Source of the DNA: Obelidium mucronatum
Taxonomy: Eukaryota; Chytridiomycota; Chytridiomycetes; Chytridiales; Chytriomycetaceae
DNA: 64,000 nt
Direction: 5' to 3'
Assembly (NCBI GenBank): GCA_025765595.1
Contig: JAIVFH010000019.1
Span: forward strand, 62,001 to 126,000
Part shown: positions 3,531 to 27,685 of the stretch, in pieces
Layout of the letters: each line of letters begins with the position of its first letter
How positions within the stretch are numbered: the first letter of the stretch is position 1
Notes under the pieces: generated by a model
Told to the model about the DNA's origin: nothing
What the model saw: the letters and a program-made list of their open reading frames with translations, nothing else
The model's database searches: none
Position numbers and translations under genes: made by a program

Positions 3531-4751
3531 ATGAGTGAGAGTCCTGCAACAGCGACTGCTATGACCACGACTAGTCCTTCAGTGCAAACTACGACGATGG
3601 CGGCTACTACTACTACTATTACTTCGGAAGGAGGTATCCAGCCTACGCAAGATCCTGTTGCGACTACTGGCGGCAATCCAGACGACAACGGCAATAACAA
3701 CAACAATGGCAATGGAAACAACAGCGTTGTTGCAACCGCTACGACGACTTCTATCAGAACAACCTCTTCTCGAGTTGTCACTACTACTTCTGCTGTGGCA
3801 GTAAGTCCAACTCCAGAAAGTGGTAGTGGATCTGGTTTGGGTATCGGCATTGGAGTGGCAGTTGTGATTATTGCCTTAGCCATTGCCGCATTCTTCTTCT
3901 TCAAGAAACGTAACGCTAAAAAGGAAACCCAAGTCCAAGAACGTGCCGTTTCTTCGACTGAATGTAAGTGGGCAAGCCCAACCAAGCCCGCCTTTTAATC
4001 AAAGAAAAAATAGTAGTTGCAAAGTCCCCACGGACACCTGATGGGGGAGACTCGTCCTCGGTCTCTATTGTCTCCGGAACACCAGTGCCTCAGCGCGTCG
4101 CTACGCAGGCCTCCCGCGTGTCCACCGTGGTTTCTCAGGACACTATCACGCAAACAACTGCTGCGCCAGCAGCTCAGGAGTCTATTGTTGTTGTTGAAAC
4201 TGCTCCAGCTTCTGCTGCTATTTCTGCTGCTTCGGCCGCTGTTGTGGTTGAATCACTTCCTCGATCAATTTTGTTTGTCTATGACACGGACTACAGTCCA
4301 TCTGGCCAAGTTTGCGAGGAAATGGAACTCGCTTTAGCGGCGAAGCTGGAAGCGCAACATCAAACTATTTCTGTCACCCGATTTGGTATCGAAGGACTTC
4401 CCGAAGAAATTGAATTGCCCAACTTGAGCTCCTTTGAGAAGGTGGTTGTTGTTTTGCGCAAGGCCGAAAGATTCAGAATTTACCGTGAAGGAAAGATCTT
4501 CACACGTCTGGAGGGTGAGTCGTCGCACTTTTTTTTCCGTTCGGCGCTATTTCTCTAACTTGAACGAACCAGAATTGTGCGGCGACAAGCTTACAACTGT
4601 GGTCTTTGAAGTGATAATGCAAAATGGAAACATGGATGCCCAAAGACACGATGGATTCCCATTGGTGTACTTTTCCACAGCTGACAAAAAGATTGTCGAC
4701 AGTCCTGGAAACGATGCGACACTCAATGAGCTCACTGCTCTTCTTTTGTGA
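3531..4751 (+). CDS. Membrane protein with TIR/SEFIR-like cytoplasmic domain (receptor A)
   Basis: Three exons (3531-3963, 4014-4514, 4573-4751) encode 370 residues. A Thr/Ser/Asn-rich stalk is followed by one membrane span (GLGIGIGVAVVIIALAIAAF) and a basic stop-transfer KKRNAKK. After a Ser/Ala/Val-rich linker comes the family cytoplasmic domain: SILFVYDTDY, GIEGLPEEI, VVVVLRKAERF, IYREGKIF, ELCGDKLTTVVF and HDGFPLVYFST. The alternating hydrophobic strands and helices suggest a flavodoxin-like fold of the TIR/SEFIR type; no catalytic residue can be assigned. Unlike its paralogues at 8537 and 10015 it shows no Cys-rich head and no signal peptide, and its start abuts the broken 5' end of the divergent gene. 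It may be 5'-truncated. Confidence 0.75.
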
Positions 4752-4825
4752 TTTTATGCGTTTAAGAAATCTTAGAATACATTCCCCTTCTATATTTGAA
4801 GTCATGTCCGCCGCAGCTGGAATTA

Positions 4826-4988
4826 CAGCTGATTTCAAAAAGAATGGCACATCCTTTTTTTTTTCGATTTTTCCAAGTATTGCATTTGGTAGCTTTGTAT
4901 AACTTTTGGTAGAGATCCCATAGCACAAGCCTGGAGGCTGCGAAGAAGCGTGCAGTTCAGCGTTCCTGCAGAATCTCCATCTTACAAG
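4826..4988 (+). repeat. Left terminal inverted repeat, 163 bp
   Basis: This segment is the reverse complement of 8347-8509 with a single difference: CGTTCCTGC here against CGTTTCTGC at the other end. Most Tc1/mariner elements have TIRs well under 100 bp, so this length is notable. The transposase start codon lies 14 bp inside it. Confidence 0.95.
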
Positions 4989-5002
4989 GCTGCTTACAAG
5001 GG

Positions 5003-6140
5003 ATGCAACTTTTCAATTTTGAAATGACTTGGAGCTCTGACATCCGGAAGAATATCGTTCTTGACATGCTGGATGGTATACCTGTTGACACTACTATCAA
5101 AAACCAAAGGGTCTCACGGAGAACGGTCGCTCGTGTGCGCTCGTACTGGAATCTATATTCTTGCACAAGCAATCCCTTTGCACAAGTAAGCGGTCGTAGA
5201 CGAACTGTAGAACGCATGTATTGCGAGGCAAGCCAATGTGCAAGAACCCGATGTTTGTTGTACTGAACTTGTTGCGACAGTACCTGCGGACATTGTTGGA
5301 TGAAAGAACAGACTGGTACTTGTTTGAGCTTCAAGAAGAGCTTGAAATAGTCATAAAGCGGAAAGTCCCACTTCCGACCCTATGGAGATGCCTACAACGA
5401 GAGGGATACACTCACAAAAAGGTTTGTGTTAACAAACGACAGTACCATATCTCATTTCCGTGGCTTATATTCCTCCAAATTCTAGCTTTCTGTTCGTGCC
5501 TTGGAAAGAAATGAATGGGAACGAGCTTGTTTTGTGGCTGAGATTGGAAACTACCCAAGGGAGTACCTTGTATTCTTCGACGAGGCTGCAAATGACAAGA
5601 AGACCCTCGAAAGACGATTTGGTTACTCCATTGCTGGAAGAAGGTCCATTCATATTGCGCCATTTGTAAGAGGAGTCCGATACTCAATCATAGCCGCAAT
5701 TTCATTATCTCATGGATACCTTGCATTCTCGGTTGAAGAGGGGGCATTAGATGGGCTGGATGTGTTTGATTTTGCCGTGAATAAGCTGGTGAGAAAGATG
5801 CAATGCCACTGCTTCTTATTTATTCATCTTATTGTTGCAGCTTCCAGAATGCAGTAGATACCCAGGACCAAATTCAGTAGTTATCTGCGATAATGCAGCG
5901 ATTCACAAACACCCTGCAATTCGTAGAGCATTCGAAAGAGCTGGAGTATTACTGATTTTCTTGCCACCGTACTCGCCAGACTTAACCCCAATTGAGAATT
6001 CGTTTTACCACACAAAGCAATGGCTCAGAAGAAACAAAGAGGACATAACTGACGGAAACAGAAGTGCAAAAATCATTGAAGCCTGTGATATGTTCACTCC
6101 CACTCTTGCTGATGCATGTTTTAGATCGTGCAAATTGTAA
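5003..6140 (+). CDS. Tc1-type transposase (DDE_3 superfamily endonuclease)
   Basis: Four exons (5003-5185, 5233-5421, 5486-5788, 5841-6140) give an open 324-residue protein. The N-terminal part has a helix-turn-helix pattern (VSRRTVARVRSYWN). The catalytic triad is visible: the first Asp in LVFFDEA, the second in VVICDNAAIH, and the Glu in LTPIENSF. Exactly 34 residues separate the second Asp from the Glu, the DD34E spacing of the Tc1 family. PPYSPDLTPIE is the usual Tc1 signature. The enzyme would bind the TIRs and do cut-and-paste transposition at TA. An apparent frame change near 5220 is explained by a 47-nt GT-AG intron, so I read it as intact; the price is loss of a Gly-Arg-Arg-Arg motif from the spliced product. 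Confidence 0.9.
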
Positions 6141-6276
6141 TAAACTCTTCTTACTCTCGTATCTTACTCTCCTAATTGTTTGACCATTCAAATTGAATAA
6201 GTTCTGATTTCTATTACGGCACAAAATGTTCAAAAAAAAAAAGATAAAGTCTAAGCAACAAAACAACTTTGAAAGC

Positions 6277-8316
6277 TTAGGAGAGGTCAAAAACTCTTCT
6301 TTGGACTTGAGTTCCTTCAATCTCCAAATGATCCTGGTCAAAACGTGCCCACAATGCTCCTTCAAACGAAACACCTATACTTCCCAACTTCCAAATAATT
6401 CGAACATCTGGCTTTTCGGCAACAGCTGACAGGAATTCTGGAGCTTCCATCTCAAGAATTGAACGGATTGAGCAGCTCTGGCTGATAGCATGTTGTGAAA
6501 CAAGTTTGAAAAACCGACCCGAAGACCATACAACTGTGATTGTGACTGTTCGAACATTGCTTCCAGTTGATGCTTGGGAAAGGGTGCCCTTCACAGAAGG
6601 GCGGGCTGATGGGGGTTCTAAAGTTGACAAGCCAGTACCCAACCTTTCCTGTTGAAGAAGATATGCGTTTTTCATATCAAAGCATGCATAGTTGGGAGGT
6701 GTGTTAAGAGTAACATGTGGATCATTTCCAGCTGTCTGAACAACATTCAGTTCGTTGACAGGTTTGCTCTGAGAAACTCACCAAGATTCTAGCCCAAGGA
6801 CGCAAATGCTTATCTTCAGATAGAAGCAAATGGTAACCATTTCTTCTGAAGCAACCATTTGAGTGGTCGCCATGGTTGTCCTTGACTTGACAAGTACCCA
6901 CATACAACTCCTTGAGTTGACCAAGAGAGTCATTTCGAGTATGTGGATGCCCTGCCAGTTTGTCCAAAATGTCGCGACGGTGGGTAGCTGGTTGAGCTGA
7001 AGCACTACTACTGGAACCTATAATTGTAATTGACGTTAGAAGACCTGAAGATGACCAGATAATTCACCTTTTGACAGGAAGACAACAAAACTAAAGCCGT
7101 TTGGAAATTGAAACACTCCTTTCACTGCCTTTACTTTGACTCGAAGCACAAAGGCCAGACCGTCATCTTCAATTTCTTGTTTGGCTGCTGCCTTCGTGTC
7201 TCTGAAGGCAATCTTGAATAAAAGATTCGACCAAGCTGGTTTAGAATCCGTGACCAATCTAATAAAGGATGCTTTGTTCAATGACGTCAGACGTGTGAGC
7301 TTTGTGAACATGCTGATTGATTGTATATCTTTCCCAGTGGCATCATCAACAGCAACAACAGGAACCACTGTAAACCAGCAAATGTTATTATACTTTCTTT
7401 TCGTGGCAGTACATCAGCAATAAACTCACTGATTTCGCAGCTTGCTGCCTTTTCGAAACCCTCGTCATCCAAATTGATTTTTTTGCCGAATCTTGGCTCA
7501 TTCTCGTTTGAAATTTGCCGCTTTAGATGACGATGATCTGATTGTTCCGATGGACAAGATGAATCAAAACAAGAAGTGGGTGCAGATGCTTGGTATCGTT
7601 CGCCAACTCGAGTTGTATTCCCAAACCAATGTGGACCATCACTTTCTCGGAACTGGGGTGATTCGTTGAAGCTACTGGAATTTCGAAGAGGGAAGAATAG
7701 CGGCTGTTTGGTTTGTGGGAGATCCTGCAATTCGGGCACTGGATCATGTCGAGGATGGTCAAAATCATCAAGGTCAAATGGGTAATCTTCGCTGTCGATA
7801 GCAGGCAGTTGGGAAGAATTGTCGACAGGTGCTTGGGGATCATTAGCAATCAGTTGCAAAGCGTTGTCGACAGCAACATTTTGGGGCCAGGCAGCGATTG
7901 GCTGGGAGTTGCTGATAGAAGCCACGGTAGGTAGTGCAAGTGGCTTGGCAGAACCACTGGCATCCTCTTCATAGACTTTTCCTGCATCCCTTATCTTCTT
8001 TGCATGAGACTGGCAAGCCGAAATGCGGGTTTGCATCTTGATGAGGCAGCTTGCAAAGATAGGATGGCGAATGCTCTGGACAAACTTGAGCTTGGCGTCA
8101 CTGGTGATGATCACACCATTGCCAGGCAGCTGTGGTGGGCTTTTTGACCGTTCGCACGTACATTCCCCTGTTTGAAAGGTCTTTGTTTAAGGGTGAGCGA
8201 GTGAGTGTGCCAAAATAGGAGCCTTGCAGAGTGACGAGACATACCACTTGATGGAGAAAGCACTTCCCGCAGTCTATGCAAACGTTTCTTGGCAGTATTG
8301 CTGGTACAGCCGACAT
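6277..8316 (-). CDS. Transposon cargo protein with Cys-rich N-terminus, function unknown
   Basis: Five exons (8245-8316, 7430-8180, 7068-7367, 6782-7017, 6277-6735) join with GT-AG introns into a clean 605-residue frame. The N-terminus has a possible metal site, CIDCGKC followed across the first intron by ECTCERS. Next come a basic segment, a long Pro/Asp/Ser-rich linker with acidic patches, and a C-terminal half rich in predicted beta strands (LAFVLRVKVKAVKGVF, TVTITVVWSS, VRIIWKLGSIGVSF). I do not recognise the family. It lies wholly between the TIRs and converges on the transposase with a 136-bp gap. An acidic linker beside a Cys-rich head would suit a DNA-binding or accessory protein, but that is a guess. 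Confidence 0.8.
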
Positions 8317-8346
8317 GATTTGAAAAGAGAAAGACACTGTTCGAAA

Positions 8347-8509
8347 CTTGTAAGATGGAGATTCTGCAGAAACGCTGAACTGCACGCTTCTTCGCAGCCT
8401 CCAGGCTTGTGCTATGGGATCTCTACCAAAAGTTATACAAAGCTACCAAATGCAATACTTGGAAAAATCGAAAAAAAAAAGGATGTGCCATTCTTTTTGA
8501 AATCAGCTG
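8347..8509 (-). repeat. Right terminal inverted repeat, 163 bp
   Basis: Reverse complement of 4826-4988 with one mismatch. Its inner end lies 30 bp upstream of the cargo gene start codon, and its outer end 27 bp upstream of the receptor start codon at 8537, so it probably forms part of both promoters. Confidence 0.95.
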
Positions 8510-8536
8510 TAAATATAAAAAAATCTTCTTTGGGTG

Positions 8537-9842
8537 ATGAGCTTCATTGGTGTAAGTTCCTCCTGCCTTCCTGCTGTCCTGACATACACCATCATAGTAC
8601 TGCGGGACAAGTGCGATTGATAAAACGTGCGCGGTTCAATGCGCAAAGCAAGATGACTGTCCTGTAGCCTGCTGGGCATTCAATGTCATCAACTGTCCTC
8701 CAAAGCCCTCCCCTACAACAGACACTCCCCCGCCGCCTGTCAAAACGACCGATGTTGTTGTTGTAAATCCCCCTCCTCCACCTACAGTTGATCCACAACC
8801 CCCATCTCCTCCCCAAACCAACGATCCAGTCGTTCCAGTGATTGTGCCAGACAATCCAATCGCCCAAGGAACGACAACGGCTTTCGTTGCAATCAGAACG
8901 TCTTCAACCGTAGTTGCCTCCAAGGGCGGCGTCCTCCCCCCTGTCGCAACTACTACCAGCAGCTCCTCTGCCCCAGAGACCAACACTGGCAGCGGAGCAA
9001 CCGCTGGTATCGCAGCTGGAATCTCCATTGGATTTGTTGCCATCTTCATTGGTTTCTTTTACTACATGAGAAGATCAAAGCAGCAGAGGGAGAATCAAGA
9101 ACGAAGTGTCTCTTCACTTGAATGTAAGGGCTTGACGGCCAGCGGCCAATTAAATCTCTCACACGTCTAACACCACCCTGCTCTGGTTTTAGTAAGAAAG
9201 AGAGGCCATTACGACGAGTCTTCGGTTGATAGCATGCCTGTCAGACAAGCAACATATGTCCCCAACTTTGCAGCTACTGCCGTTCCAGCTGCTGCTGCGG
9301 TGTCCAGTGTGGCACAATCTGGACCAAAGAGGTCTATCTTATTTGTATATGACACAGACTATGCACCATCGTCTCAAGTCTGCCAAGAAATCGAGCATGT
9401 TTTGTGGGCAAAACTAGCGGCTCAACAGCGTATTGTTGCAACTCGACGATTCGGTATCGAAGGACTTCCCGAAGATATTCAATTGTCTCAGTTGGGCTAT
9501 TTTGACAGAGTCGTCGTCGTTCTTCGTAAAGCAGAGAGATTTAGAATCTACCGTGAAGGGAAAATCTATGCACGTTTGGAAGGTATTACTATCCGGTTTT
9601 TTTGATTTCTGCAATGTTTATGGATGCAGTTTCCTTAAAAAAAATCATTCTTATTTTCTGTAGAACTCTGTGGTGACAGACTCACGACTGTGGTCTTTGA
9701 TGTTGTGATGCAGAACGGAAACATGGATGCCCAAAGACATGATGGATTCCCACTTGTATATGTATCAACGGCCAACAAGAAAATCATCCAGACTCCAGCG
9801 AACGATGCAACCTTTAATGAGTTGACATTCCAGTTATTGTAG
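8537..9842 (+). CDS. Cys-rich receptor-like protein with TIR/SEFIR-like tail (receptor B)
   Basis: Four exons (8537-8551, 8598-9123, 9193-9582, 9664-9842) encode 369 residues. A 15-nt first exon (MSFIG) splices in phase 0 onto the Cys-rich module YCGTS...C...C...DDC...CW...NC. A Pro/Thr/Val stalk, one membrane span (AGIAAGISIGFVAIFIGFFY) and a basic MRRSKQQR stop-transfer follow. The cytoplasmic domain has SILFVYDTDYAPS, GIEGLPEDI, VVVVLRKAERF, IYREGKIYARLE, ELCGDRL and DGFPLVYVST, closely matching the copies at 3531 and 10015. The gene model shows no cleavable signal peptide. The Tc1 element ends 27 bp upstream of the start codon. Confidence 0.85.
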
Positions 9843-10014
9843 GGGCGGGCACCTTCCTTTTCTATCTTCACTTCGTTCTGTTTTTTCTTTATCCTGAGTT
9901 CTATTAGATGGAATAGCTTTGAAACCATGAAGTTCATTAAAAAGCAGATTAAAAACTTCTGTGTGGTGATTCACACAAGCCTGGATATTTTTTTTTTTTG
10001 TGATTAGAAGAAAA

Positions 10015-11342
10015 ATGGCAGACGCAGGGGTAACCATGATCTGCTGTTGTATGTCTGCAAGACTAACACTCGCCCTCAAAGTACTGTGGCTATGATCCAC
10101 GCCGGGAATTGACGGCTTGTTTTGGAAAACCAGAATGCAGTGTCAACAGCCAAAATTGTCCTCGAAAACAAACATGCTTCTCGTACCAAGACTTTGTGGA
10201 TGCAAGAAACCAGCCATGCGTTGATCAATTGAACAGGTTTCTACCTGTCGTGACTACGACTGCCCGTCCTCCAAGAACTACAGTGGCGGAGAATCCACCT
10301 CCTGCACCCACTATGACGACCGTTCAGGGCCTTCCGCAATCGGGTGAACCTGGTTCCGGACCGACTGGTGATTCATCCGATGGGCAATTATCGGGTTCCG
10401 GGGACGTAAACTCTGCTGGGGGAGTGTTGATAACTGCAACTGTCAAGTCCGCTGGTGGTCCTGTTATCAACAGTCCTAGTTCTACACCTGTCACGATTGG
10501 ATCTTCGGCAAGCAGTGAAAGCGGAAGCGGATCTGGTTTAGGAATCGGTATTGGACTAGCCCTTATTGTGTTGGCTGTTGGTGGATTTGTGTTTGCCAAG
10601 AAACAGCGTCAACGCAAAGAAGTGGCAGCGGCACCTGATAGCACTTTTCCCTCTGAATGTAAGTCGAAAAGTTTTTCTCTTTCATCCATTTACTTGTCTT
10701 CTTGATATTTAATTATTTAAAATCTATCCCACTGCAGACACCGCCGCCCCAGTTCAGAAGGCGATCATTACACCCGCATATGCTGCGCCAATACCAACAG
10801 CAGGAGCAGCCGCTGTTATCACAGCTGGCGTAATCCCGTCCGCCAAGCGTTCGATCCTCTTTCTCTATGACACAGACTACACCCCCTCCGCCCAAATCTG
10901 CCAAGAAATTGAACACGTTTTGTGGGCCAAACTGGCTGCCCGTCAACGTGTGGTTGCAACCCGAAGACTTGGACTACAGGGACTTCCTGAAGATATCCAA
11001 TTATTCCAACTGGGCGAGTTCGATTCCATCGTTCTTGTTCTGCGTAAAGCTGAGAGATTCAAAATCTATCGCGAGGGGAAAATCTTTGATCGATTGCAAG
11101 GCATAGTACCTTTTTTTTCTTATTTTATTGGAGTGTCTTAGTGTTCCTAATGTTATTTCTTAGACCTCTGTGGCAGCAAGCTTATCACCGTTATTTTCGA
11201 TGTTGTGATGCAGAATGGCAACATGGATGCACAGCGACATGACGGATTCCCTTTGGTTTACTTTTCTGCTGCCGACAGAAAGGTTGTTCCTACTCGTGAG
11301 AATGACGATACCTTGACCCAACTTGCAGAGCAGCTTTTGTGA
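10015..11342 (+). CDS. Cys-rich receptor-like protein with TIR/SEFIR-like tail (receptor C)
   Basis: Four exons (10015-10029, 10082-10658, 10738-11100, 11164-11342) encode 377 residues. Micro-exon MADAG joins YCGYDPRRELTACF, with six Cys before a Thr/Pro/Gly/Ser-rich stalk. The span GLGIGIGLALIVLAVGGFVF is followed by KKQRQRKE. The cytoplasmic domain repeats the family blocks: SILFLYDTDYTPS, GLQGLPEDI, IVLVLRKAERF, IYREGKIFDRLQ, DLCGSKLITVIF and HDGFPLVYFS. The third intron (11101-11163) starts with GC instead of GT, a GC-AG intron, placed exactly where the paralogues have GT-AG introns. The gene lies 172 bp downstream of receptor B in the same orientation. Confidence 0.85.
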
Positions 11343-11460: not shown

Positions 11461-12392
11461 ATGAGTGTGAGTCCAATTTGAGGTTTTGCTCTGACCCGAC
11501 TCTGACCCCCTTCGCTTTTAAGTACTGCGGAGCACGTGTGACGGATGTAACCTGCAATAGTATTCCTTGCAAGACCATTCGCGACTGTGGACCAAGCATG
11601 AACTGCTGGGTCGTCAGTCTCAATTGTAATCCAACACCGCAACCATCACCAGACCCACCACCCCCACCACCTCCACCTCCACCACCTCCCCCATCGCCAT
11701 CTCCAGACACACCAAGCGGTGGAGGTGGTGGCAGCGGTGGAGGAGGCGGCGGAGGAGGAGGAGGAGGAGGAGGCGGAAGCGTTCCAACTGACGCACCACA
11801 AGCGGCTTCAACGACCGCAATTGGACAGAGCATCACTTCCACATCTTCACTGCAGTCAGTTGCTCAAAAAACCGCCTCGGCTTTGGGTAACACAAGCTCC
11901 AGCACTACTGACAGCGGAAGCAGCGGACCCAACATTGGGATGATTGCGGGAATCGCTGGCGGCGTAATAATTCTGATTGGAATCATTGCCTTCTTTGTGA
12001 TGCGAAAGAAGAAGGCATCAGCAACGGAGCCAGGAGTAACTGTTGGAATGTACTCATATCCAACGGAACCCCAGAAAGATATCAAGAGAAGCTCACCAGC
12101 TCCTCCTCCATCTCCTACATCTTCTACGTCTCATACTCTCAATCTTTCGTTGGCGCCTACTTCTGGTTACCAAGCGTCGGAGTACCAACAGCTTGGCTAT
12201 GCAGTTACGGCTGTGCCTGCCTTCTACAGAGCAAATCGTGACCACATTGCCAAATCAGACGCAGAATTGACGATTCACGAGGGGTCAAGGGTGTACATCA
12301 CTCGACTGCCAGATAAAGACGGGTGGTGTTTTGGAAGAATCGGGGGAACAGAAGGATTAGTCCATTCGTCTGTCTTGGGACTCGTTGGTTAA
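11461..12392 (+). CDS. Cys-rich receptor-like protein with SH3 tail (receptor D)
   Basis: Exon 1 is only ATGAGT (MS). A 56-nt intron containing an in-frame stop must be removed to join exon 11523-12392, giving 291 residues. The head YCGARVTDVTC...CKTIRDCGPSMNCW...NC is nearly identical to that of the next gene. A run of Pro followed by a long Gly/Ser run forms the stalk. One membrane span (NIGMIAGIAGGVIILIGIIA) and basic MRKKKA come next. The C-terminal 60 residues are an SH3 domain: AVPAFYRA, AELTIHEGSRVYI, GWCFGRIGGTEGLVHSS, with the ALYDY-like start, the WxxG-type core and the Gly-rich turn. SH3 domains bind Pro-rich peptides, so the tail could recruit a Pro-rich partner. Confidence 0.87.
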
Positions 12393-12645: not shown

Positions 12646-13677
12646 ATGAGTGATGTGAGTACTCTTCCTCAACAAATACACTCTAACATCATCTTTCAGT
12701 ATTGTGGGAAAACTAGCACTGATAGATCATGTCTTATCCCCTGTCGGACCATTCGGGATTGTGGACCATCCATGAACTGCTGGCCTTCAACTGTACTGAA
12801 TTGTAATCAACCACCACCACAGCCTTCGCCCGATCCACCACCACCTCCACCGCCTCCTCCGCCTCCACCGCCACCTTCACCTACACAACCTCCACAACAA
12901 TCCCCCGCCCCTTCTCCTGCAAGCCCTGGAGATGGAGGTGGTGGTGGTGGCGGCAATGGCGGCAACGGCAGCGGCAGCGGAGGCAGCAATGGCGGAGGAA
13001 GTGGAAGCGGCAATGGAGCTGGTAGTATTGGCGGCGGCGGCGGTGGTGGTGGTGGTGGCGTTTCGAATCCTGAATCTCAATCCACTGCCATCCAGGCAAT
13101 CGCTACGACCGGCTCCACAAACCGCCAACAAGTATCCAACAATGCTCCTCCTGGTGGAAACGCAAATATCAGCCCTGTCTTGGATAGTGGAAACGGTGGT
13201 GGTGGTGGTGGTCCCAATGTTGGGATGATTGCAGGGATTGCGTGTGGGGCCTTGATATTGATTGGAATCGCTGCCTTTATCGTTGTGCGCAGGAAGAAGG
13301 CAGCCGTGGAATCCATTGGTTCAGTCCACCACTCTCAGTCATCAAAGGATAAAGAAATGAAGATCACGGCAAACTCGACACCTCCTTCTCCTACAACTTC
13401 TTCCACCCGTGAGCTCAACCTTTCAATTCCTGTCGCGGCTCCCGTGTATCAGTATCAGCCGCCAGCGCATCAGTACCTTCATCAATCCGTCACAGCCGTG
13501 CCTGCCTTCTATCGCGCAAATTGCGATTATATTGCAAAGGCCAGCGGAGAACTGACCATCCACGAAGGCTCCAGAGTTTACATCACGCGAATGCCAGATA
13601 ACGAGGGGTGGTGTTTGGGGCGAATTGGCGGAACTGAGGGTTTAGTTCCATCGCGTATCTTGGGTCTTGTCGGTTAA
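12646..13677 (+). CDS. Cys-rich receptor-like protein with SH3 tail (receptor E)
   Basis: Micro-exon 12646-12654 (MSD) plus exon 12700-13677 give 328 residues. The 45-nt intron happens to be open in frame, so an unspliced form would add 15 residues. The head YCGKTSTDRSC...CRTIRDCGPSMNCW is a close copy of the upstream gene. The stalk is a long Pro run, then Gly/Ser/Asn repeats that have drifted in length between the two copies. The span NVGMIAGIACGALILIGIAA is followed by VVRRKKAA. The SH3 domain (AVPAFYRANCDYIA, GELTIHEGSRVYI, GWCLGRIGGTEGLVPSR) is at the very C-terminus. A clear tandem duplicate of receptor D. Confidence 0.88.
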   Translation: MSDVSTLPQQIHSNIIFQYCGKTSTDRSCLIPCRTIRDCGPSMNCWPSTVLNCNQPPPQPSPDPPPPPPPPPPPPPPSPTQPPQQSPAPSPASPGDGGGGGGGNGGNGSGSGGSNGGGSGSGNGAGSIGGGGGGGGGGVSNPESQSTAIQAIATTGSTNRQQVSNNAPPGGNANISPVLDSGNGGGGGGPNVGMIAGIACGALILIGIAAFIVVRRKKAAVESIGSVHHSQSSKDKEMKITANSTPPSPTTSSTRELNLSIPVAAPVYQYQPPAHQYLHQSVTAVPAFYRANCDYIAKASGELTIHEGSRVYITRMPDNEGWCLGRIGGTEGLVPSRILGLVG

Positions 13678-16935: not shown

Positions 16936-17070
16936 GATTGTTGTGTTGGTTCAATGTCTGAGAATATGCGTCTGAGTAAAAAGAAAAAAAAAAACGAAAA
17001 AGAGTTCATTGTATTGGTTCAAGTGTCTGAGAGTGTGATTAAAAAGAAAAAGGGAAAAAAAAACGAAAAA

Positions 17071-18382: not shown

Positions 18383-19335
18383 ATGAAGATTGTGTTGTTT
18401 GGGATCCTTCTCATCGCGACGTGTGGTTGGACACAAACAACGAAGCACTGTGGAGGGTATGGTTTAGCTGAGGCATCGGTCGTGGTTAAAAGACCATATG
18501 CTTGTATTGTTCGAGGTGATACTGTTTCTGCCTGTACTGCAATGAGAGTTCCAAGTGGAAGTTATGAGCTGGCTATTGAGGTACTCCTTTTCTCCCACTC
18601 TCTTTGCTATTATTTCCTTCTTCTGAATGGTTTATCGACTCTTCTTGGATGTAGAATGATGGCAGCCTTGTTGTGTATGACTCCAAATCGAGCGGCAAAT
18701 GGATTTCTTACGGCAGCGGTCGGGTATCTTCCGATACAAGGCTGCATTACAACACAAGCGGAGAAGTTCAAATGTTTTCTGGGGGCAAAGTAGTTTGGTC
18801 ATTACAAACTGCTGGTTCCGATGGCTTCTTTTGTGTGACTGGTTATGGCGACGTAAAATTGTACGATAATGAATTCACCACAATTTGGACCTCGTCCACA
18901 CAAAGCTATACCTCAGGCTATCCCAAATCTCCACAGGAAACAATCAAAATCTCTACTGGCGCAATCGCGGGAATATGTGCTGGAGCTGTCGCTCTTGTTG
19001 GAGGTGCTGTATTCCTACTGTACCGTCGCCGAGCTCAAGAACCGAAAAAGTCCATTGAACAACTCCAGCCATTCATTCCAACTATACAATCAACATTCAT
19101 TGGATCCCCCCCTCAATTATCTGAAACCCTTGAGATGGCGCCGTTCCCCTCTGGTCCAAGTGAAACTTTCAAGGCAAGCGTCAGTTATCACGCCCAATAC
19201 GATGGAGAGCTCACAATTGAACAAGGAGACCGTGTTGAGGTGATTGGAAAGAGGGACGACGGGTGGTGCCGCGGACGGGTTGGAAGTGGAGAGTTAGGTT
19301 GGATCCATATTTCGAAATTGGAGTTGGTGGGATAG
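18383..19335 (+). CDS. B-lectin receptor-like protein with SH3 tail (receptor G)
   Basis: Exons 18383-18580 and 18655-19335 encode 292 residues. The signal peptide MKIVLFGILLIATCGWTQ and lectin body are near copies of receptor F, including HCGGYGLAEASV and VSACTAMRV. The Pro-rich stalk of F is almost absent: the lectin runs nearly straight into the span (STGAIAGICAGAVALVGGAVF). The SH3 domain (SYHAQYDGELTIEQGDRVEVI, then DDGWCRGRV, GWIHISKLELVG) is complete. The coding end is followed by duplicated copies of its own last 36 bp. Confidence 0.9.
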
Positions 19336-19475
19336 GCAACCAAAAGTTGGATCCATGTTTCGAAATTGGATCTGGTGGGATAGAAACAATTACAACCAAA
19401 TAAGAAGAAAGTAAATGATGGTGAGAGATCGAAATTGGATCTGGTGGGAGAAGAAGAAAGTAAATGATGGCCATT
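19299..19475 (+). repeat. Partial tandem copies of the receptor G 3' end
   Basis: The block TGGATCCATATTTCGAAATT plus GGAGTTGGTGGGATAG at the end of receptor G recurs at 19346-19382 with two or three changes, and a shorter copy (ATCGAAATTGGATCTGGTGG) lies at 19427-19450. A second motif, AAGAAGAAAGTAAATGATGG, also occurs twice (about 19402 and 19449). These are tandem duplications of a gene tail. Confidence 0.75.
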
Positions 19476-19752: not shown

Positions 19753-19946
19753 GTGAGCAGAATATGGCCTATTTTCAATTAACCAGGATGCAGGGAATGT
19801 AAAGCCACGCAATGAGAGCCAATGACACCCCTCACTGAATACCAAGAGGAAATATTTTGGTCACGAGTAACTGCAAATTCTCACGAATTATGTGTAAATG
19901 TATTCCGCCATTCAATAAGCAGTTTAGCCATTATATAAGCGATTAT

Positions 19947-21144
19947 TTAAACACGTAAGCTCTCCACAATCTCAGAAAACACGGCTTTTTGTTTTGGAAG
20001 CAACGCGTAGCTCAACGAGCAGTATACTACCGGGCAGCCTTCGTACCGAGCAAGGGATTCAGTCAAATTAGTCCCGACTGAACTCGAAACAGTGTCATAC
20101 ACAATTGGAACAAAGCGCTTGCCATGCTGAGAACAGATATCTGAAAAGAAAATCGCGCGAAAAAAAAAAAGATGTAAATGGATGAAAAAAAAGGGAAATT
20201 AAGGGACAGTGGAAGTCTTTACCCTTTAAGCGATGGACAATTTTCCCCTCTCGATAGATTAGAAACCGATCCACCTTGTGGACTGCGACAAGGACACAAT
20301 CAAATCGATCCAATTCAATCTCAATTTCTTCAGGAAGACCAGCGATTCCAACCGTTTCTGTTGAAACCTTGTATCGCAACGAAAGCATTGATGAGATTTT
20401 GCGTTCAAGTTGTTCAGCAACGAGGAGCGATGGCGCGAAATCCGTGTCATGGAGAAACAAGAGAGAAAGCGTTGGCAACGATAATGTTGGTGCTGGTGGT
20501 GGTGGCAGAGAATGGGAAATTGCAAAGGTCCCCTGAGGCTCCAACAAATCTTTTGCAGCAATCAAGCATTACGGCAATTAATATCAGAAAACCAAAAAAC
20601 AATAAGCCAATTACCTTCAAGATTTGATTGACCGGGTTTCTTGGCTTTTCGCTTTCTAATGAAAACAACGGCAATTGCGGCTCCAAGTAATAGCACAATG
20701 GACGAGATTCCCACTCCAAGACCGATTGCCAGGCGATCGTCTTTCGGCGGAGGAGGACCGATTGCCAAGCGATCGTCGTTCGGCGGAGGAGGACCGATTG
20801 TCAAGCGATCGTCTTTCGGCGGAGGAGGGAGAGGGCCGATACTTGTTGATGCTGCATTATTAGGGTCAGGGATAGTTGCGACCATCGTCGATGACAGCGA
20901 AGTAACAGTTGAGGTCACAGCAATTCCTAAGAAAGATTCCACGTTCGGTTTTGGTCGGCAGCCCTTGGAATCGCAAGTTGAAGTTGTGCCAGTCCCGCAT
21001 ATGAATTCACCATCTATGCAAACAAAATTCTCGTTGCCGCAGTTTTTCTTTGCTTTCACGGCCTCGAAGGTGCCACAACTCTGGGCAACAGGGCGTCAGC
21101 TTGGAGAAATAGCCGCTTGGGTTCCTTACATCCGAATAAGACAT
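19947..21144 (-). CDS. Cys-rich receptor-like protein with TIR/SEFIR-like tail (receptor H)
   Basis: Four exons (21130-21144, 20615-21080, 20223-20549, 19947-20140) encode 333 residues on the opposite strand to its paralogues. Micro-exon MSYSD splices to SCGTFEAV...NCGNENFVC...C...C...C. The stalk contains PPPPKDDRLAIG three times in tandem. The span (GISSIVLLLGAAIAVVF) is followed by IRKRKAKK. The cytoplasmic domain is the most divergent of the family, but all blocks are kept: LSLLFLHDTDFAPS, GIAGLPEEI, FDCVLVAVHKVDRF, IYREGKIVHRLK, then GKRFVPIVYD and GCPVVYCSLSY. This divergence makes the invariant residues informative. Confident as a gene; the fold assignment is tentative. Confidence 0.83.
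20721..20830. repeat. Three 36-bp tandem repeats in the receptor H stalk
   Basis: Three copies of a unit starting CCGATTGCCAGGCGATCG lie head to tail in frame, each encoding PPPPKDDRLAIG or a close variant. Copies differ by one to three bases. Confidence 0.9.
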
Positions 21145-22251
21145 CAATTTGGAGGAATTATTGTTGAACTTTTCGCATCCCGAAACAAGGCCAAAGCACA
21201 ACCCCGCCACCGGATCGCACCGCCTCGAGCCTCAGTACAGCTAGTAATATGACTGATGCGGAGGTGTCTCTGAAGCCTGATTTTTGATTTTCTGCTTCGT
21301 TCGTGTTTTAGAGATGACTGGGCCAGAGTACGAACGAGCCCTATTTGATATTTCAGAGGCTGTCCATAAATACGAACCACGCGTGTGAAAGCTCTTAAGC
21401 TTAGTAGCTCTCTTTGCAAGGACGAGATATCGGTGTATGCCTTGCAGTTGCAGGGCTCGCAAACACCACCGTAAAAAATAATGAAATCATATAAGCGTTA
21501 CGGAAGTATGCTTTCAAGTGGGGAAAAGCCTGGTTGTTTGAGAGCAGCACTTTGCTTCCAGTTCATCGAAAGCAAATGTGTTGAGTATGATTGCCATTGA
21601 TTGGGAGGTCAGATACAACGAAACTCAAACTCATTATTACGTGAGGAAATAAAAGAACTATGTTTAGAGATGTTGTACAAACAGAAGCAAGAAACCGAAA
21701 AAAAAAAAGCTATCATCGTTGGCATGGGAACATTGAGTCCCCAAGGTGTCATTGGTGTTGTTATCGATGAGTTCCAAGAGTGACATTTAAATATGTAGTG
21801 AACTATAACCAAAGCCGATTCTCACTGCTATAGCATCAGTTCGCGCCTTATTTTTTGGATCATTTGCTCCACTTGTTGCCGAAATCAAAAATCGGGCTTC
21901 AGACCGACTTCCGCATCAATCATACTACTTACTGTGAGTGCGATGCAGTGATTGCGCTTTGGCCTTGTTATGCAGACTAGCTAGAAAAAAACAAAGATTG
22001 GAGACTAGATCGGCCTAGGTGTTGAGCTGTCCCACATAACGTCTTATTTGGTATTAAATTGCTGTGAACTTACTGGTCATCAAGTTCGATTGCTGGCATT
22101 AATGGGGTTGCTTCCACGTCCACTACAAGAAAACAGGAATGCGATTGCCTATATGATACTTACGCAAATGCTAGTGGTCTGGATGTGCTTCTGTGATCGG
22201 CGGGATGAACGGTGCTTTTGAAGATGGGAAAAAAATGGACAAAAAATTTCA
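21145..22251. other. Gene-poor interval between receptors H and I
   Basis: I find no supportable gene in these 1.1 kb. Short open frames of 60-90 codons on both strands lack introns, domains or paralogues. The first 300 bp would hold the receptor H promoter and the last 200 bp that of receptor I. Confidence 0.5.
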
Positions 22252-23363
22252 ATGTTTTATGCGCTTGTGCTGGCTATCGGCAGCGTTGCCGCCCAGGGCA
22301 CCTCGAAGTGCGAAGGCGCTGGCTGGCCCTTGTTTTCCTCCAGCATTCCTTCTGGTAACATTGAGTGCATCGGCAGGGGCACGTCCATCCCAGCTTGCCG
22401 CGCATTAGGACGGACAGGCGCGAAATACGTGCTGACAGTGCAGGTATTTAATTAAGCAGTATTCCGGATGCGCGCTGACGGCTGCGGCAGAACGACGGCA
22501 ATCTCGTAGTGTACAACGCGGCCACCAACGCCGCCGCGTGGTCGTCGGGCAGCTTCAGCCTCACTCAGGTCGACAGCGACACGGCGCTGCGCTATCTTCC
22601 GAGCGGCGAAGTTGCGCTGGTGGCCGGCAGTCGCGGACTCGTGTGGTCGCTGCGGACAGCGGGCGGCACAAACGGATGGCTGTGCGTCGACACGGAGAGA
22701 GGAAACGTCGTGCTGTACGAGAACCAAAAACTGGTGTGGGACTCAGAGGGCGGGTACAAGGATGGATCGGGATACCCGCTGAACCCTGCCACCACAACTC
22801 AACAACGACAAACACAAGCAAACACCGTCCTTCCAACTGCGAGTCCTCTTCAATCGGATCCTTCTCCTCAGAATTCTCCCAAGCCTTCTCTGCCGCCCAC
22901 TACCCAGACTCCAGAACTACCACCACCAACCTCGTCGTTTTCGGCTGGTGCAATTGCAGCTGTCGTCGTTGCTTCTTTTGTGCTCCTAGGCTTCGGTGCA
23001 TTCCTTCTCTATCGGCGCAAAAAATTTACTGAAGTTTCTCGACGCGATATCTTACAGCCTGTCACTGTTCCTTTTATAACAGTTCCAGCCCCAGCTCCAA
23101 AACACATTGGCCCTCCTCCTAATAATATTGAAATGACTGAAACTCCAACCAGTTACACAACTGGGCGGCCCATTCCCACCGCGTTTTTCATGGCGAAAGA
23201 TAATTACCCCATTACAGGCGAATCCAAACATGACGGAGAACTGACGTTGATTGCTGGAGCTCGAGTAGAAGTTATTGATACACGAGATGAATGGTACCGG
23301 GGAAGAACAGAACCTGGCGCATTTTACTGGGTACACAAATCCAGGTTAGAGCCTGTTGGTTGA
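22252..23363 (+). CDS. B-lectin receptor-like protein with SH3 tail (receptor I)
   Basis: Exons 22252-22443 and 22491-23363 encode 354 residues. The signal peptide is MFYALVLAIGSVAAQ. The lectin domain has NDGNLVVYNAATN, DTALRYLPSGEVALVAGS, VWSLRTAGG and GNVVLYENQKLVW, closest to receptor J. A Pro/Ser/Thr stalk, one span (GAIAAVVVASFVLLGFGAFL), YRRKK and a C-terminal SH3 (FMAKDNYPITGESKHDGELT, then VEVIDTRDEWYRGR, FYWVHKSRLEPVG) follow. The first 500 bp of coding DNA are much richer in G+C than the rest of the gene and than receptor J, with an abrupt change near 22790. Confidence 0.9.
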
Positions 23364-23538
23364 ATTTGCTAGCAATAATTGCGTTTCTGTTGAATGAATA
23401 AATGAATGTTATTTAATTTTTCAATAATTTAATGTTGTTTTGTACAAGTATGCCGTGTGACACAAATATTGTCATAGCTGGGATAAATGTAAGCAACCGC
23501 AATCTCTCACAATCCCATTCAAAAAAATAAATAAATTC

Positions 23539-24401
23539 ATGGGCGCCTCTGAAACATCCAGAAACCCAAATTCATTATTGGTCAAGCCCGTTGACGAGCG
23601 GGCAGACGCTGCAAAGTTGCCACCTGGACTGCTTTCATTCATTCCACAACTGCTAGCAGATGGTAACAAAGAATTGGCCAAGGTAAAAATCCTACTCCGA
23701 TACGCTGATACATCCCTCATATTCCTTTTGTTCATCAAGAACTTAATCTTTATTCTTCAGATTGACAATTCTCTGCATCAGGCGCCAATCATTGTCGAAA
23801 TCGCGTATTTGACAAAGCTTCGGCACGTATACGTACTTGCCTACGTAATAGTTGCAGTCTTGTATGTGATTTTAGTAGCCGCCAATATTTTTGGTGGGTT
23901 TTTGACATATTGTTTGGCGATTGGTTGGCCCATTATTCAAAGTTTACGGGCGGCGAAGGAATGCAAAAAGGAGTCGGTCCAGCAATGGTAAAGCTATTAA
24001 ACCGTTTTGTGGATAGAGTAACGTGTTTCATTTTTTTTTGTTTGAGACAGGCTTTCGTATTGGATTATATTGGCCCTATTTACTCTTGTAGAGTATGGCG
24101 GCAATAGACTGCTTTCATTATTTCCGTTCTACTATTTTATAAAACTGGTCTTCATACTGTGGCTTATTATTCCTTATTTCAGGGTGAGTGTCAGAATATT
24201 TGAATAGTAACAAAAACTTAACGGAATAATACATCAACGTAGGGATCATTAATCATATACAATGTTCTCTTGGAGAACATTTTGCCTCTAATTTCAGAAT
24301 CAGCGAAACCCGAGCAAACTACTGATTCAAAAGCCGAAATTGTGGTGAAGAGGAAAGAACATCGGATGATGAAGAACGACTTCATTGGACTAATTGCGTA
24401 A
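23539..24401 (+). CDS. TB2/DP1/HVA22 family membrane protein (Yop1/REEP-like)
   Basis: Four exons (23539-23682, 23761-23987, 24051-24183, 24243-24401) encode 220 residues. The core matches the HVA22/DP1 pattern: hydrophobic hairpin LAYVIVAVLYVILVAANIFG, then GWPIIQSLRAAKE, WLSYWIILALFTLVEY, FPFYYFIKLVFILWLIIP and a final IIYNVLLENILP. Family members shape tubular ER membrane. A 70-residue N-terminal extension and a Lys-rich tail lie outside the core. It is a single housekeeping-type gene inside the receptor array and its frame is intact, so it was probably present before the array expanded. Confidence 0.88.
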
Positions 24402-24589
24402 AATATATCCCTCTTATTTCAACCAACTGGTCCCGACCTTGATTTGTGTAACCAATAAAAGGGGTTCATTTCGCGTTTCAATAATTGTTACAAGATCTTC
24501 CAAAACCCAATGTTAGTTCTGCGTTATATTTGGCTTTGCGTTTGGCTGGGTATTCGGCTGTCGCCTTGCGAGGAACAAGGAAGTGGAAA

Positions 24590-24700
24590 CAATTCTGCGC
24601 CACCTCTGGGCCGCCTGTGCGTAACCGCGCGGCTCCTCTGCTGCCAACCACCAATTGAACTGTGCAATTCGAGAGATACGAAAGCCTCGTGCTGGATTCG
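24590..24700 (-). pseudogene. B-lectin fragment
   Basis: The minus strand reads STRLSYLSNCTVQLVVGSRG then LRTGG, matching DVRLSYLSNGDIQMVSGSRV (receptor J) and the VAGSRG...LRTAGG of receptor I. No signal peptide, stalk, span or SH3 remains in frame. It is oriented opposite to the functional lectin receptors. Confidence 0.55.
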
Positions 24701-25222
24701 ATTTGACTGGTGTTGGATAAATGATGGTAAAACTGTGACCGTATAAACAGTTTAAAAAAACCGGGCAACTTTTTGTTCTGTCCTTGCGTGATACTATTTT
24801 TCTTCATTTAAAATTAGGCGGTTTATTCCAGTCATATCGTGTATACTCCTCAGTCCATGAATTGCCCAGGGCGATTCATTGCGCTTCTTTGAAGCGACAG
24901 ACAAGCACTCATTCAAATCGACGGATGAAAAATGTAGTGGGTACGTAAGGACGATTGAATGATTCAGAATGAAAGGAAGTCAAAAGTACATCATGGCAAC
25001 AGTTGGAAAGGCAACCCCCTCCATCACAGTGCGATTTTGTTCCTGCGGAAACCCGACTGGGTTGCGCAACTGGGCTTGCATCACAGTCGGTTGCGTCTAC
25101 ATCGCGTCGGGATGCGTCTGGAAGCCGGCAAACCACGGCGGCGCAATGGCGGCGTTCAAGTTGGCAAATGCGCTCATTTTGAAAAGTTTTTGTTGGTGTT
25201 CTGCTTTGCCACCGTTTGTCAT

Positions 25223-25465
25223 TTAACCTTGCAGCAAGGACACAATGAAATCGATGCAATTCGGAGCGTGCAGTCTCAATTTCTTCAGGAAGAGCAGCGA
25301 TTCCAACCGTTTCTGTTGAAACGTTGAACTGCGACGAGAGATTTGATTCTGAGTGACGAGGAGCGACGGTCCGAAATCAGTGTTATGGAAAACCAAGAGA
25401 GAAAGAAATGGCTTGGCAATAAGATTGTTGGTGCTGGGGAGAGAATCATGATTAACAATGTTCAA
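25223..25465 (-). pseudogene. Fragment of a TIR/SEFIR-like cytoplasmic domain
   Basis: On the minus strand, PFLSLLVFHNTDFGPSLLV matches LSLLFLHDTDFAPSLLV of receptor H; the DNA then keeps the counterpart of STETVGIAGLPEEIE in another frame, followed by an FDCVL-like piece. At least two frame breaks and an internal deletion are present, and the IYREGK block is absent. Confidence 0.65.
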
Positions 25466-25494
25466 AAAATAAGATATCCATTCAGCTTGACTAT

Positions 25495-25722
25495 GGCAGC
25501 TTCTTTAGCAGGAAGTTCTGCGAATAGCCACAATCACACCATCGACAGCAACCAACAGCATTGGACCGACAACGAGTATCGACTATTTCCCTCCTCCTCC
25601 TCCTCCGAAAGATAATCGCCTGCCAATTGGGGGAATCTCGTCTATCGATTAGAAAGCGTCATTGTGATTAGAAAGCGGAAAGCCAAGATACCCTTGGTCC
25701 CTGCCAATCAAATGTTGACGGT
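25495..25722 (+). pseudogene. Fragment of a receptor stalk and post-membrane region
   Basis: On the plus strand, PPPPPPKDNRLPIG, GISSI and VIVIRKRKAKIP followed by a GTAATT donor match the stalk and stop-transfer of receptor H (PPPPKDDRLAIG, GISSIV, VVFIRKRKAKKP, GTAATT). Most of the membrane span is deleted and a stop lies after GISSI. It points the opposite way to the adjoining cytoplasmic fragment, so a former receptor was broken and partly inverted. Confidence 0.6.
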
Positions 25723-25926
25723 AATTCGATTTTTTCGTTGTTGGTTGCCCGTAATACTGAGACGAGACGGAGCCTTTCTGGAATCCAGGGCAGGTGAATC
25801 TGGTCGACAACGAATCCCGCTCTTGTTTTTACAGCTTGCCAATGCAGAGCCCTATGGATCGTGATCCAGCCCGCAGATCTTAATAGTATCATTTACCCAA
25901 ATTGGTAAAATCTCATCGAAGAAGCA

Positions 25927-27068
25927 ATGCACATTTCCATCGCCCTGGCTGCTTTCGCGATCAGCACCGTTGCGGCCCAGGGCTCCTCGAGTCTTTGTGA
26001 AGGAGTTGGCTGGCCAGTGTTTGCGTCAGCCGGAACTGCAGGTTCCTCGATTTGTATTGGCCGGACTCAATCGATGGCGGCTTGTCAGGCATTGCGGTTG
26101 CCAGGCGGAAAGTTCGAACTAACAGTGCAGGTGTTTACTTAATTCTGCAAAGTGTGACAGCATGTGTCCTGATCGCTTTGTTTCAGAACGATGGTAATTT
26201 GGTTGTATACAACACTGCTACAAAGGCGTTTCTGTGGGCTTCTGGCAGCAACGGCCCAGTTGCCTCAGATGTGAGACTCTCGTATCTGTCGAATGGGGAT
26301 ATTCAAATGGTGTCTGGCAGTAGAGTCGCGTGGTCCTTAGAGACTGTGGGATCAAACGGATTGTTGTGCATTGACACAAACAACGGAAAGCTGACTTTTT
26401 ACGACAACAACGGAGGAACTCTGGGAAATCCAGTTTGGGATTCGTTTACAAACCAGTACAAAGCTGGATCTGGATACCCAAACGCTGGTCGCGTTACGGC
26501 TACCACGATCAGGACTACGACTGTAGCACCTCAACCGCAACCACAAACTCAACCAAATTCAGTCGATACAACTATGGCTCCTCGTCCATCACTGCCGTCT
26601 CCTGTTACTCCGCCGCCGCCGCCGCCTTCTCCCCCTCCCCCCTTTCCAACTGGTGCAATTGCGGCAATTGTTGTTGTTACTTGTTTTCTCTTGGGTATCG
26701 GAGGATTCCTTCTCTATCGCCGCAAGAAGGCCGCGGAACTCAAGCAAGCTGAGGCCTTGCAACCTGTAATTAACCCTTACTTAACAACTCCAGCTCCACA
26801 CCCGTACATCGGCCCACCTCCAACAGAAATCGAAATGAGAGAAGTTCCACCCACATCCACAACTGGGCGTCCGACTCCCTCGGCGTTTTACATGGCGAAA
26901 GATAATTACCCCATTGAAGGTCAATCCAAACATGACGGAGAACTGATATTGATTGCTGGAGCTCGTGTCGAAGTTGTTGAAACGCGTGCAGATGGGTGGT
27001 GCCGGGGGAGAACTGAACCCGGTGCTTTTTATTGGGTTCATAATTCCAGGCTTGGGCTAATTGGATGA
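25927..27068 (+). CDS. B-lectin receptor-like protein with SH3 tail (receptor J)
   Basis: Exons 25927-26130 and 26187-27068 encode 361 residues. The signal peptide is MHISIALAAFAISTVAAQ. The lectin has NDGNLVVYNTATKAFLW, SDVRLSYLSNGDIQMVSGS, VAWSLETVGSNGLLC and LTFYDNNGG. The stalk is Gln/Pro/Thr-rich with a Pro run, the span is GAIAAIVVVTCFLLGIGGFL, then YRRKKAA. The SH3 (FYMAKDNYPIEGQSKHDGEL, then VEVVETRADGWCRGR, FYWVHNSRLGLIG) ends the protein. It differs from receptor I mostly by substitutions and lacks the GC-rich 5' section. Confidence 0.9.
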
Positions 27069-27249
27069 GTTGAAACTTAACAAAGACGTCATGAATTTTT
27101 CATCATATGTACGCAATAAGGCGTCCTTCTGTTTTCTTTCTCTCTTGAAAAACCTTGTTTTCTTCAGATATTGATGATTGCGCCTGTGGGGGTTGTTGCC
27201 CGGATCTCATTCTCTTCGACTCTATACTCTGGTCAACCTTTCGGTTCTT

Positions 27250-27685
27250 TATCATGCATTCGGCGTTCCCTTTCGAATTTGCCATGCCAAGTGGCGGAGA
27301 ATATGAGCTGGCAGTACAGATAGATTCCGTATTGTTCAGTAGAGTGTGATACGTCGCTGCGATGCTGATTGATCGTTTTCTTTCAGAATGATGTAAACTA
27401 GCAGTGTACAAAAACTGGCCCAATTGCGTCAGACTCAAGACTTTCATATCTTGCAAATGGTTTTATTCAGGTGTCCTGTTTCTTCCCACAAAAGAACAGA
27501 AAAGAACTAACCGCTTTCGTCCAATCAGTCATGCGCTTCAGCTTAGAAATCCAACGCGTTTGCCTTTTCTCTTTATTTCACTATAGGTCACCCATAGCTT
27601 TTCTCTTTATTTCACTATAGGTCACGCATAGCTCAGGCACGCCGCCCTTCCTCAAAGCGAAAGACAACTCATTCGACTAACGTTG
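27250..27685 (+). pseudogene. Decayed B-lectin/SH3 receptor copy
   Basis: The remnant reads SGGEYELAVQ at the usual exon end, but the donor GT has become AT. A second exon starts NDVN, then a stop, and continues in another frame as TGPIASDSRLSYLANGFIQV. Near 27636-27680 a piece PPFLKAKDN matches the SH3 start (AFYMAKDN). The rest of lectin, stalk and span is deleted. Confidence 0.65.
27564..27635. repeat. 36-bp tandem duplication
   Basis: Two adjacent copies of a 36-bp unit beginning TTTTCTCTTTATTTCACTAT and ending near CATAGC, differing by one base (CACCCAT against CACGCAT). They lie within the decayed receptor copy. Confidence 0.85.

Follow-up and report, generated by a model that had tools for sequence, protein, structure and literature searches.

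To our knowledge, LRR-type surface pattern-recognition receptors are largely missing in fungi. A 64,000-nucleotide stretch of DNA from the chytrid Obelidium mucronatum (Chytridiomycota), hereafter the window, carries an array of receptor-like genes, which raises the question of what kind of membrane proteins they encode and whether recognition is among their roles. On balance, the sequence suggests that they are probably a fast-turnover family of single-pass, glycan-binding cell-surface sensors.

A modular array of single-pass membrane proteins

Open frames and exon models place ten genes for single-pass membrane proteins within positions 3531–27068; transmembrane helices (TM), orientation and signal-peptide-like N-termini were judged by eye from the translations. 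A head is joined to a tail in nine of the ten, using three of the four possible combinations: a Cys head with an alpha/beta tail in three genes (G2, G3, G8), a Cys head with an SH3 tail in two (G4, G5) and a B-lectin head with an SH3 tail in four (G6, G7, G9, G11). The remaining gene, G1, has an alpha/beta tail and no head, and the pairing of B-lectin with alpha/beta tail is absent among the ten. The initial annotation had described nine proteins, eight of them combining one of two heads with one of two tails; the modular architecture and the pairing stand, the count becomes ten and one of the combinations is missing. The modular single-pass array is thereby confirmed, more strongly than first stated, with its architecture established at the sequence level.

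All genes but G8 lie on the plus strand. Among those with alpha/beta tails, G1 (3531–4751; exons 3531–3963, 4014–4514 and 4573–4751) encodes a Ser/Thr-rich ectodomain without Cys head, a TM and the tail, and is the same as database protein P0003. A Cys head, a TM and the tail are encoded by G2 (8537–9842; exons 8537–8551, 8598–9123, 9193–9582 and 9664–9842; head motif YCG; same as P0001), by G3 (10015–11342; exons 10015–10029, 10082–10658, 10738–11100 and 11164–11342, the last intron requiring a GC-AG donor at 11101) and, on the minus strand, by G8 (19947–21144; exons 21144–21130, 21080–20615, 20549–20223 and 20140–19947; head motif SCG; same as P0009). Because database protein P0002 corresponds to the G3 model shortened at the N-terminus and without the head, the G3 head is a reading of this analysis. 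G4 (11461–12392; tiny exon 1 at 11461–11466) and G5 (12646–13677; tiny exon 1 at 12646–12654) each encode a Cys head, a Pro/Gly stalk, a TM and an SH3 domain. G6 (17071–18203; exons 17071–17262 and 17328–18203) begins with a hydrophobic, signal-peptide-like N-terminus followed by B-lectin, TM and SH3, a layout that G7 (18383–19335; exons 18383–18580 and 18655–19335) repeats with a short stalk. G9 (22252–23363; exons 22252–22443 and 22491–23363; same as P0005) and G11 (25927–27068; exons 25927–26130 and 26187–27068; same as P0004) likewise encode a signal-peptide-like N-terminus, B-lectin and TM, with an SH3-like tail. Five of the ten models (G1, G2, G8, G9, G11) agree letter for letter with database proteins, and homology searches returned no database records for G4–G7.

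Two further contigs, C206 and C267, have collinear flanks from which we infer that they are the other haplotype. Nine of the ten genes have open frames on both haplotypes of the assembly (C19 and C206), with alignment gaps of whole codons, which would not be expected of chance frames. On C206 an insertion of 777 bp, its ends carrying a repeat of about 9 bp, breaks G8. A 3.7-kb DNA transposon (4825–8510), which the initial annotation did not mention, has 166-bp inverted repeats that are 99.4% identical, TA flanks on both sides and a transposase that by eye is of Tc1/mariner type; C206 carries the empty site.

Between the genes lie relics: TM and tail pieces of a G8-type gene (25230–25746, minus strand); an inverted lectin-SH3 gene (24418–24702, minus strand; lectin piece 24610–24702, 3′-end piece 24418–24460); a lectin head (27290–27473, plus strand; 27417–27473 by sequence comparison and from 27290 by frame reading); and a second copy of the G7 3′ end (19346–19383, plus strand). 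Seven pseudogene fragments and duplicated tails had been reported before; relics are indeed present, and their number is four gene relics plus one duplicated flanking piece (21882–21935).

Identity of the heads and tails

Lectin heads are recognized best as a group. A profile of the four (A1) matched gastrodianin-4 (E 2.3e-12) and other bulb lectins, placing them at profile level in the B-lectin family (PF01453). Individually, the proteins scanned scored 16–24 bits, under the Pfam cut-off of 32.4; P0004 (G11) had no Pfam B-lectin match at E 0.01, and the Pfam B-lectin model run against the whole genome recovered none of the window genes at E 0.001. At the first sugar site, read directly, the motif QxDxNxVxY, which we take to be the sugar-binding motif of bulb-type B-lectins, is intact in G9 and G11 (VQNDGNLVVY) and degenerate in G6 and G7; a degenerate site in two of the four window lectins would count against a glycan sensor. 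The Cys head matched nothing in Pfam, nor any PDB entry below E 0.06, and the surface location of the Cys-headed proteins is less sure because no signal peptide is visible.

The SH3 tails are above the Pfam cut-off in G4, G5, G6 and G7 and under it in G11, with no match at E 0.01 in G9. A six-sequence profile that takes in G9 and G11 (A2) matched p47phox (E 3.6e-16), and at the sequence level these tails belong to the SH3 family. Read by eye in the A2 alignment, against what we take to be the canonical ligand-binding residues, the groove Pro is retained in G5 only and the last Tyr in none of the six, and these losses would also count against the sensor reading. The SH3 domains of G4 and G5 are 56 and 60% identical to that of a lectin-headed gene at 12.5 kb on C19, against 32–42% for the four lectin-headed window genes. 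In the SH3 tree the Cys-headed tails branch with the C19 lectin tails (support 93/95, not starred), a grouping at which long branches converge; the tree would also be compatible with each head type having arisen once on SH3 tails.

The alpha/beta tail had been called TIR/SEFIR-like. With HMMER filters on, none of the six tail proteins matched the Pfam TIR or SEFIR families at E up to 10. A genome-wide SEFIR search was silent throughout, its controls included. The predicted fold is flavodoxin-like and its matches include TIR and SEFIR, and equally Argonaute MID domains and FMN reductases, so that the TIR/SEFIR label has partial support. TIR and SEFIR chains were among the top structural matches for one tail model, and VIA matches, which we preferred over the Foldseek rows, set no family apart from the rest. 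The Foldseek rows shown (E about 3e-4 to 1.5e-2, rmsd 5.5–11.7 Å) listed GPCR fusion constructs, catalases and GTPases for the G8 model, and flavodoxins and oxidoreductases for the G2 model, with TIR chain 5for at rank 6. Searched by sequence against solved structures, the G1 tail gave nothing below E 0.6 and the tail profile (A4) nothing below E 0.03, the best match being 1qor at 0.036. We therefore rejected assignment to a known fold, since sequence and structure matches single out no family.

Tail homologues below E 1e-60 numbered three in one search and six in another, all from O. mucronatum. Among the best 7,996 candidates scored, none was found outside this species and the next matches (E 0.08–0.09) were apparently to TM or low-complexity sequence; the search needs shared five-letter words and restricts candidate length, and absence from other chytrids does not follow. 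G6 and G7, although from this genome, were missed by a lectin query, which may reflect either a limit of the search or the lack of a record.

Exchange, turnover and selection

Heads and tails are mosaic in sequence at three places. Neighbours on C267 (L053 and L038) have different heads (52 of 93 residues identical; dS 0.34, dN 0.35) on the same tail (TM-SH3, 130 of 132 identical; dS 0.00, dN 0.007). At 46–48 kb on C19 the arrangement is reversed, with neighbours L061 and L059 sharing a head (103 of 107 identical) and differing in TM-SH3 (46 of 145). G8 and its paralogue on C8 are 31% identical in their heads and 88% in their tails. This genome thus does not hold a stable orthologue set free of head/tail recombination. 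Non-adaptive concerted evolution of tandem arrays would also be consistent with exchange of this kind.

In the assembled sequence the haplotypes differ in copy number: C8 has six lectin exon-2 places and the allelic C267, which aligns in both flanks, has two. Four C8 copies that closely resemble one another have apparently shifted frames. Together with the relics, the polymorphic transposon and the insertion in one G8 allele, those copies are what would be left behind by a tandem family that had no role in recognition and evolved neutrally, through birth and death with gene conversion. We consider this account highly improbable, given that the nine open pairs and the tails show the proteins to be kept: pooled dN/dS between haplotypes is 0.09 for alpha/beta tails (three genes) and 0.08 for SH3 tails (six genes), values that in these alignments mark purifying selection. 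Duplication and loss of modular heads over conserved tails, as initially proposed, is borne out by the relics, the haplotype difference and these ratios.

Elsewhere in the proteins the pooled ratios are 0.25 for Cys heads, 0.21 for stalks, 0.41 for TM plus juxtamembrane region and 1.30 for B-lectin heads. The lectin-head excess stems from G7 alone, whose head differs between haplotypes (dN 0.122, dS 0.053) while the remainder is nearly identical (head versus rest, p = 3e-7; amino-acid versus silent change, weak at p = 0.04); once G7 is left out, the difference between lectin heads and tails vanishes (p = 0.78), and positive selection on heads as a general claim was rejected. In the tandem pair G4/G5, head dN is 0.31 against 0.12 for the tail (dS 1.6 and 1.8; 34 and 62 codons). 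Between haplotypes, faster head change is confined to G7; between tandem copies it is seen in G4/G5. Conversion of the G7 head from another copy was rejected, as the assembly holds no donor closer than the other allele; an unsampled donor is possible.

Such a head is what might be expected of mating or allorecognition proteins, where haplotypes differ most where compatibility is read, and mismatch does reach 6.1% over 18–19 kb against 0.4–2.0% over 28–40 kb. However, G7 is the only one of nine compared genes with head divergence, there are further peaks at 21–22 kb (5.9%, mostly non-coding), 25–26 kb (5.0%) and 40–41 kb (3.3%), and the haplotype comparison comes from one isolate. We regard this explanation as very unlikely.

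A candidate family of surface sensors

As glycan-binding sensors, the proteins would present an outer head on a Pro/Ser/Thr/Gly stalk, with one TM helix linking it to a cytoplasmic module. The head is either a B-lectin, for which mannose-type glycans are the probable ligands, or a short module rich in Cys. The SH3 tail would recruit partner proteins, and the orphan alpha/beta tail would serve in protein interaction or signalling. On binding a surface that bears glycans, whether substrate, microbe or another chytrid, the proteins would cluster and their tails would come together. Change in the arrays would arise from tandem duplication, from transposon hits and from recombination within the stalk, which would give a kept tail another head or a kept head another tail. 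We infer the ligand, signalling and biological role, recognition included, as well as surface location and orientation, the latter from Lys/Arg residues after the TM.

Wall sensors of the Wsc/Mid2/Fus1 kind follow the same plan, with a short tail, a single TM and an ectodomain rich in Cys or in Ser/Thr. As attachment proteins or wall sensors, the heads would anchor zoospores or rhizoids to chitin or the wall of the same cell, and the tails would organize cytoskeleton or wall synthesis. Weak single-protein Pfam matches to Psg1 (E 0.008, under cut-off) and Mid2 (E 0.095) point this way, as does copy-number change, which is ordinary among adhesins. Yeast Fus1 is a single-pass protein with a Ser/Thr-rich outer part, no signal peptide and a C-terminal cytoplasmic SH3 domain; read by eye, the translations of G4 and G5 would likewise be single-pass, lack a signal peptide and end in SH3. 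Wall sensors, however, tend to be stable and small in number, whereas here heads with dN 0.35 share one tail, and we consider this alternative somewhat unlikely. Fus1 itself is encoded by one gene, serves cell fusion in mating and, unlike this family, is not known to have a lectin or Cys head, a tandem array or head/tail swapping.

Other known systems share parts of the design. Plant G-type lectin receptor kinases form expanded families with a B-lectin outside, one TM and a kinase inside, where the O. mucronatum proteins carry SH3 or alpha/beta tails instead. Animal Toll/IL-1 and SEFIR receptors are single-pass proteins with a flavodoxin-like cytoplasmic domain, matching the plan and predicted tail fold of the alpha/beta proteins; the latter have no Pfam TIR/SEFIR match and different ectodomains. 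Vertebrate NK-receptor clusters vary in copy number and carry animal signalling tails; they are clustered like this family, with a different lectin type and different tails. Membrane receptor families including C-type lectin molecules are described for those clusters (PMC1193534). Fungal NLRs, according to PMC9815663, bear a SEFIR-resembling, TIR-like domain at cytosolic N-termini; this TIR-clan-like module is fungal but cytosolic, whereas the O. mucronatum proteins are membrane proteins. The terms lectin and SH3 do not occur in PMC8778642, and we found no fungal lectin-TM-SH3 or Cys-TM-alpha/beta family in the titles and abstract openings available, with few subscription papers among them.

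By analogy, the head/tail pattern resembles recognition-receptor families in animals and plants, and the present analysis adds to the initial annotation head/tail recombination within one genome together with a haplotype copy-number difference. A stronger version, in which the array serves non-self recognition at the fungal surface, the stalk acts as recombination hinge and the alpha/beta tail is perhaps a far-diverged relative of TIR/SEFIR that signals in a Toll-like manner, seems to us quite unlikely; were it true, it would provide a fungal counterpart to the surface immune receptors of plants and animals. A family in a zoosporic fungus that exchanges lectin and Cys heads above retained tails is a concrete candidate with named genes, and the O. 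mucronatum arrays may be regarded as a natural experiment in domain shuffling via the stalk.

Gene models and protein anatomy

Within the 48.3 Mb assembly (694 contigs), ten single-pass genes (G1-G9 and G11) were modelled between 3531 and 27068 of the window, which covers 62001-126000 of contig C19. Five models (G1, G2, G8, G9 and G11) agree letter for letter with the database models, even in the unusual 15-base exon that opens G2 and G8. In the database record for G3 the N-terminal head is missing, and the intron of this gene at 11101 requires a GC-AG splice.

Lectin-headed G6, G7, G9 and G11 open with a hydrophobic, signal-peptide-like stretch, followed by a B-lectin domain divided by one intron, a stalk, a transmembrane (TM) helix, Lys/Arg and an SH3-like tail. 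The Cys-headed genes (G2-G5 and G8) begin with a 6-15-base exon and an intron, after which come YCG or SCG and then a module rich in Cys; no signal peptide was visible when their translations were read by eye. The Cys-headed paralogue on contig C8 (P0010) has a similar 12-base exon ahead of its head. Because the intron position is common to Cys heads on both tail classes (alpha/beta and SH3), these heads seem to form one lineage. G1 is headless. Charges after the TM helix indicate the probable membrane orientation, and the architecture as a whole leads us to infer that the proteins are receptors; a rival reading is that they are attachment or wall sensors.

The array adjoins a minus-strand P-loop protein gene (639-1951), whose weak Pfam hits, to SMC_N and to interferon-inducible GTPase, fall below cut-off, and is flanked by a minus-strand ABC transporter gene (28147-30488; ABC2_membrane_3 match in 29502-30488). 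A hydrophobic-protein gene (23540-24400; membrane stretches by eye) lies between G9 and G11, its first exon without a Pfam match at E 0.01. An unrelated gene left of G6 (13969-16940), one exon of which likewise gave no Pfam match at E 0.01, divides the array. Since its 3' end is copied beside lectin genes on contig C267 (18833-19076; 244 bp, 92%), a block may have been duplicated.

Haplotypes, selection and copy number

Contig C206 is collinear with the array contig, C19, and its flanks are 97.6% identical, so it is most simply the other haplotype. It also holds a diverged second copy (8888-9676, 76%) of 1137-1910 in the P-loop gene. Nine of the ten genes are open on both contigs; on C206 one G8 allele is interrupted by a 777-bp insertion with C-rich runs and a repeat of about 9 bp at either end. 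A 3.7-kb transposon between G1 and G2 (4825-8510; 166-bp inverted repeats, TA target) is present on the C19 haplotype only. It ends 26 bases ahead of the G2 start codon and has a second reading frame (7287-8186, minus).

Between haplotypes, Nei-Gojobori dN/dS for nine genes (G8 excluded) was 0.09 in alpha/beta tails, 0.08 in SH3 tails, 0.21 in stalks, 0.25 in Cys heads, 0.41 in TM and juxtamembrane segments and 1.30 in B-lectin heads. The last figure is owed to G7 (head dN 0.122, dS 0.053; TM-SH3 dN 0.010), and with G7 removed heads and tails did not differ between haplotypes (p = 0.78). Allorecognition and neutral turnover are rival readings of the family.

A genome search at E 0.01 found 47 lectin places, counting exons and both haplotypes, clustered on C19/C206, C8/C267, C322, C20 and elsewhere. 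Exon 2 is represented six times on C8, four of these places being alike and apparently frame-shifted, and twice on C267; the matches listed for C8 include at least three exon-1 places. The flanks of C8 and C267 align with each other, at 97-99% to the left and 91-95% to the right. For the alpha/beta tail there are 17 exon places, in the four window genes and their counterparts on C206, at C19:296 kb, and on C8 and C267. Assembly error may inflate or mask these counts. At E 0.001 the Pfam B-lectin model matches the genome at one place only, C12:194369-194590, which lies outside the arrays (27.2 bits, under cut-off). C5, C9, C47, C55, C75 and C81 carry further SH3 places whose frames stay open for 184-441 aa; these are possible TM-SH3 genes with heads of other kinds.

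A mosaic head-tail family

Two neighbours on C267, L053 and L038, have unlike heads (52/93 residues identical; dS 0.34, dN 0.35) and the same TM-SH3 part (130/132; dS 0, dN 0.007), identity climbing to 97-100% inside the stalk. L061 and L059, which are neighbours on C19 and lie about 14-16 kb to the left of the window, have a common head (103/107; dS 0.06, dN 0.02) and dissimilar TM-SH3 parts (46/145). Comparison of G8 with its C8 paralogue gave 31% identity in heads versus 88% in tails, and dS of 1.57 (45 codons) versus 0.27 (81 codons); head and tail therefore differ in descent, not in constraint alone. Among twelve SH3s compared, those of Cys-headed G4 and G5 are closest to each other; the next closest belongs to the gene at C19:12.5 kb, which has a lectin head.

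These genes establish the structure, maintenance and mosaicism of a head-tail family. Our best reading is a glycan-binding surface-sensor family in which heads are renewed over kept tails by recombination in the stalk; the most daring would have Toll-like tails serving a fungal form of surface immunity.
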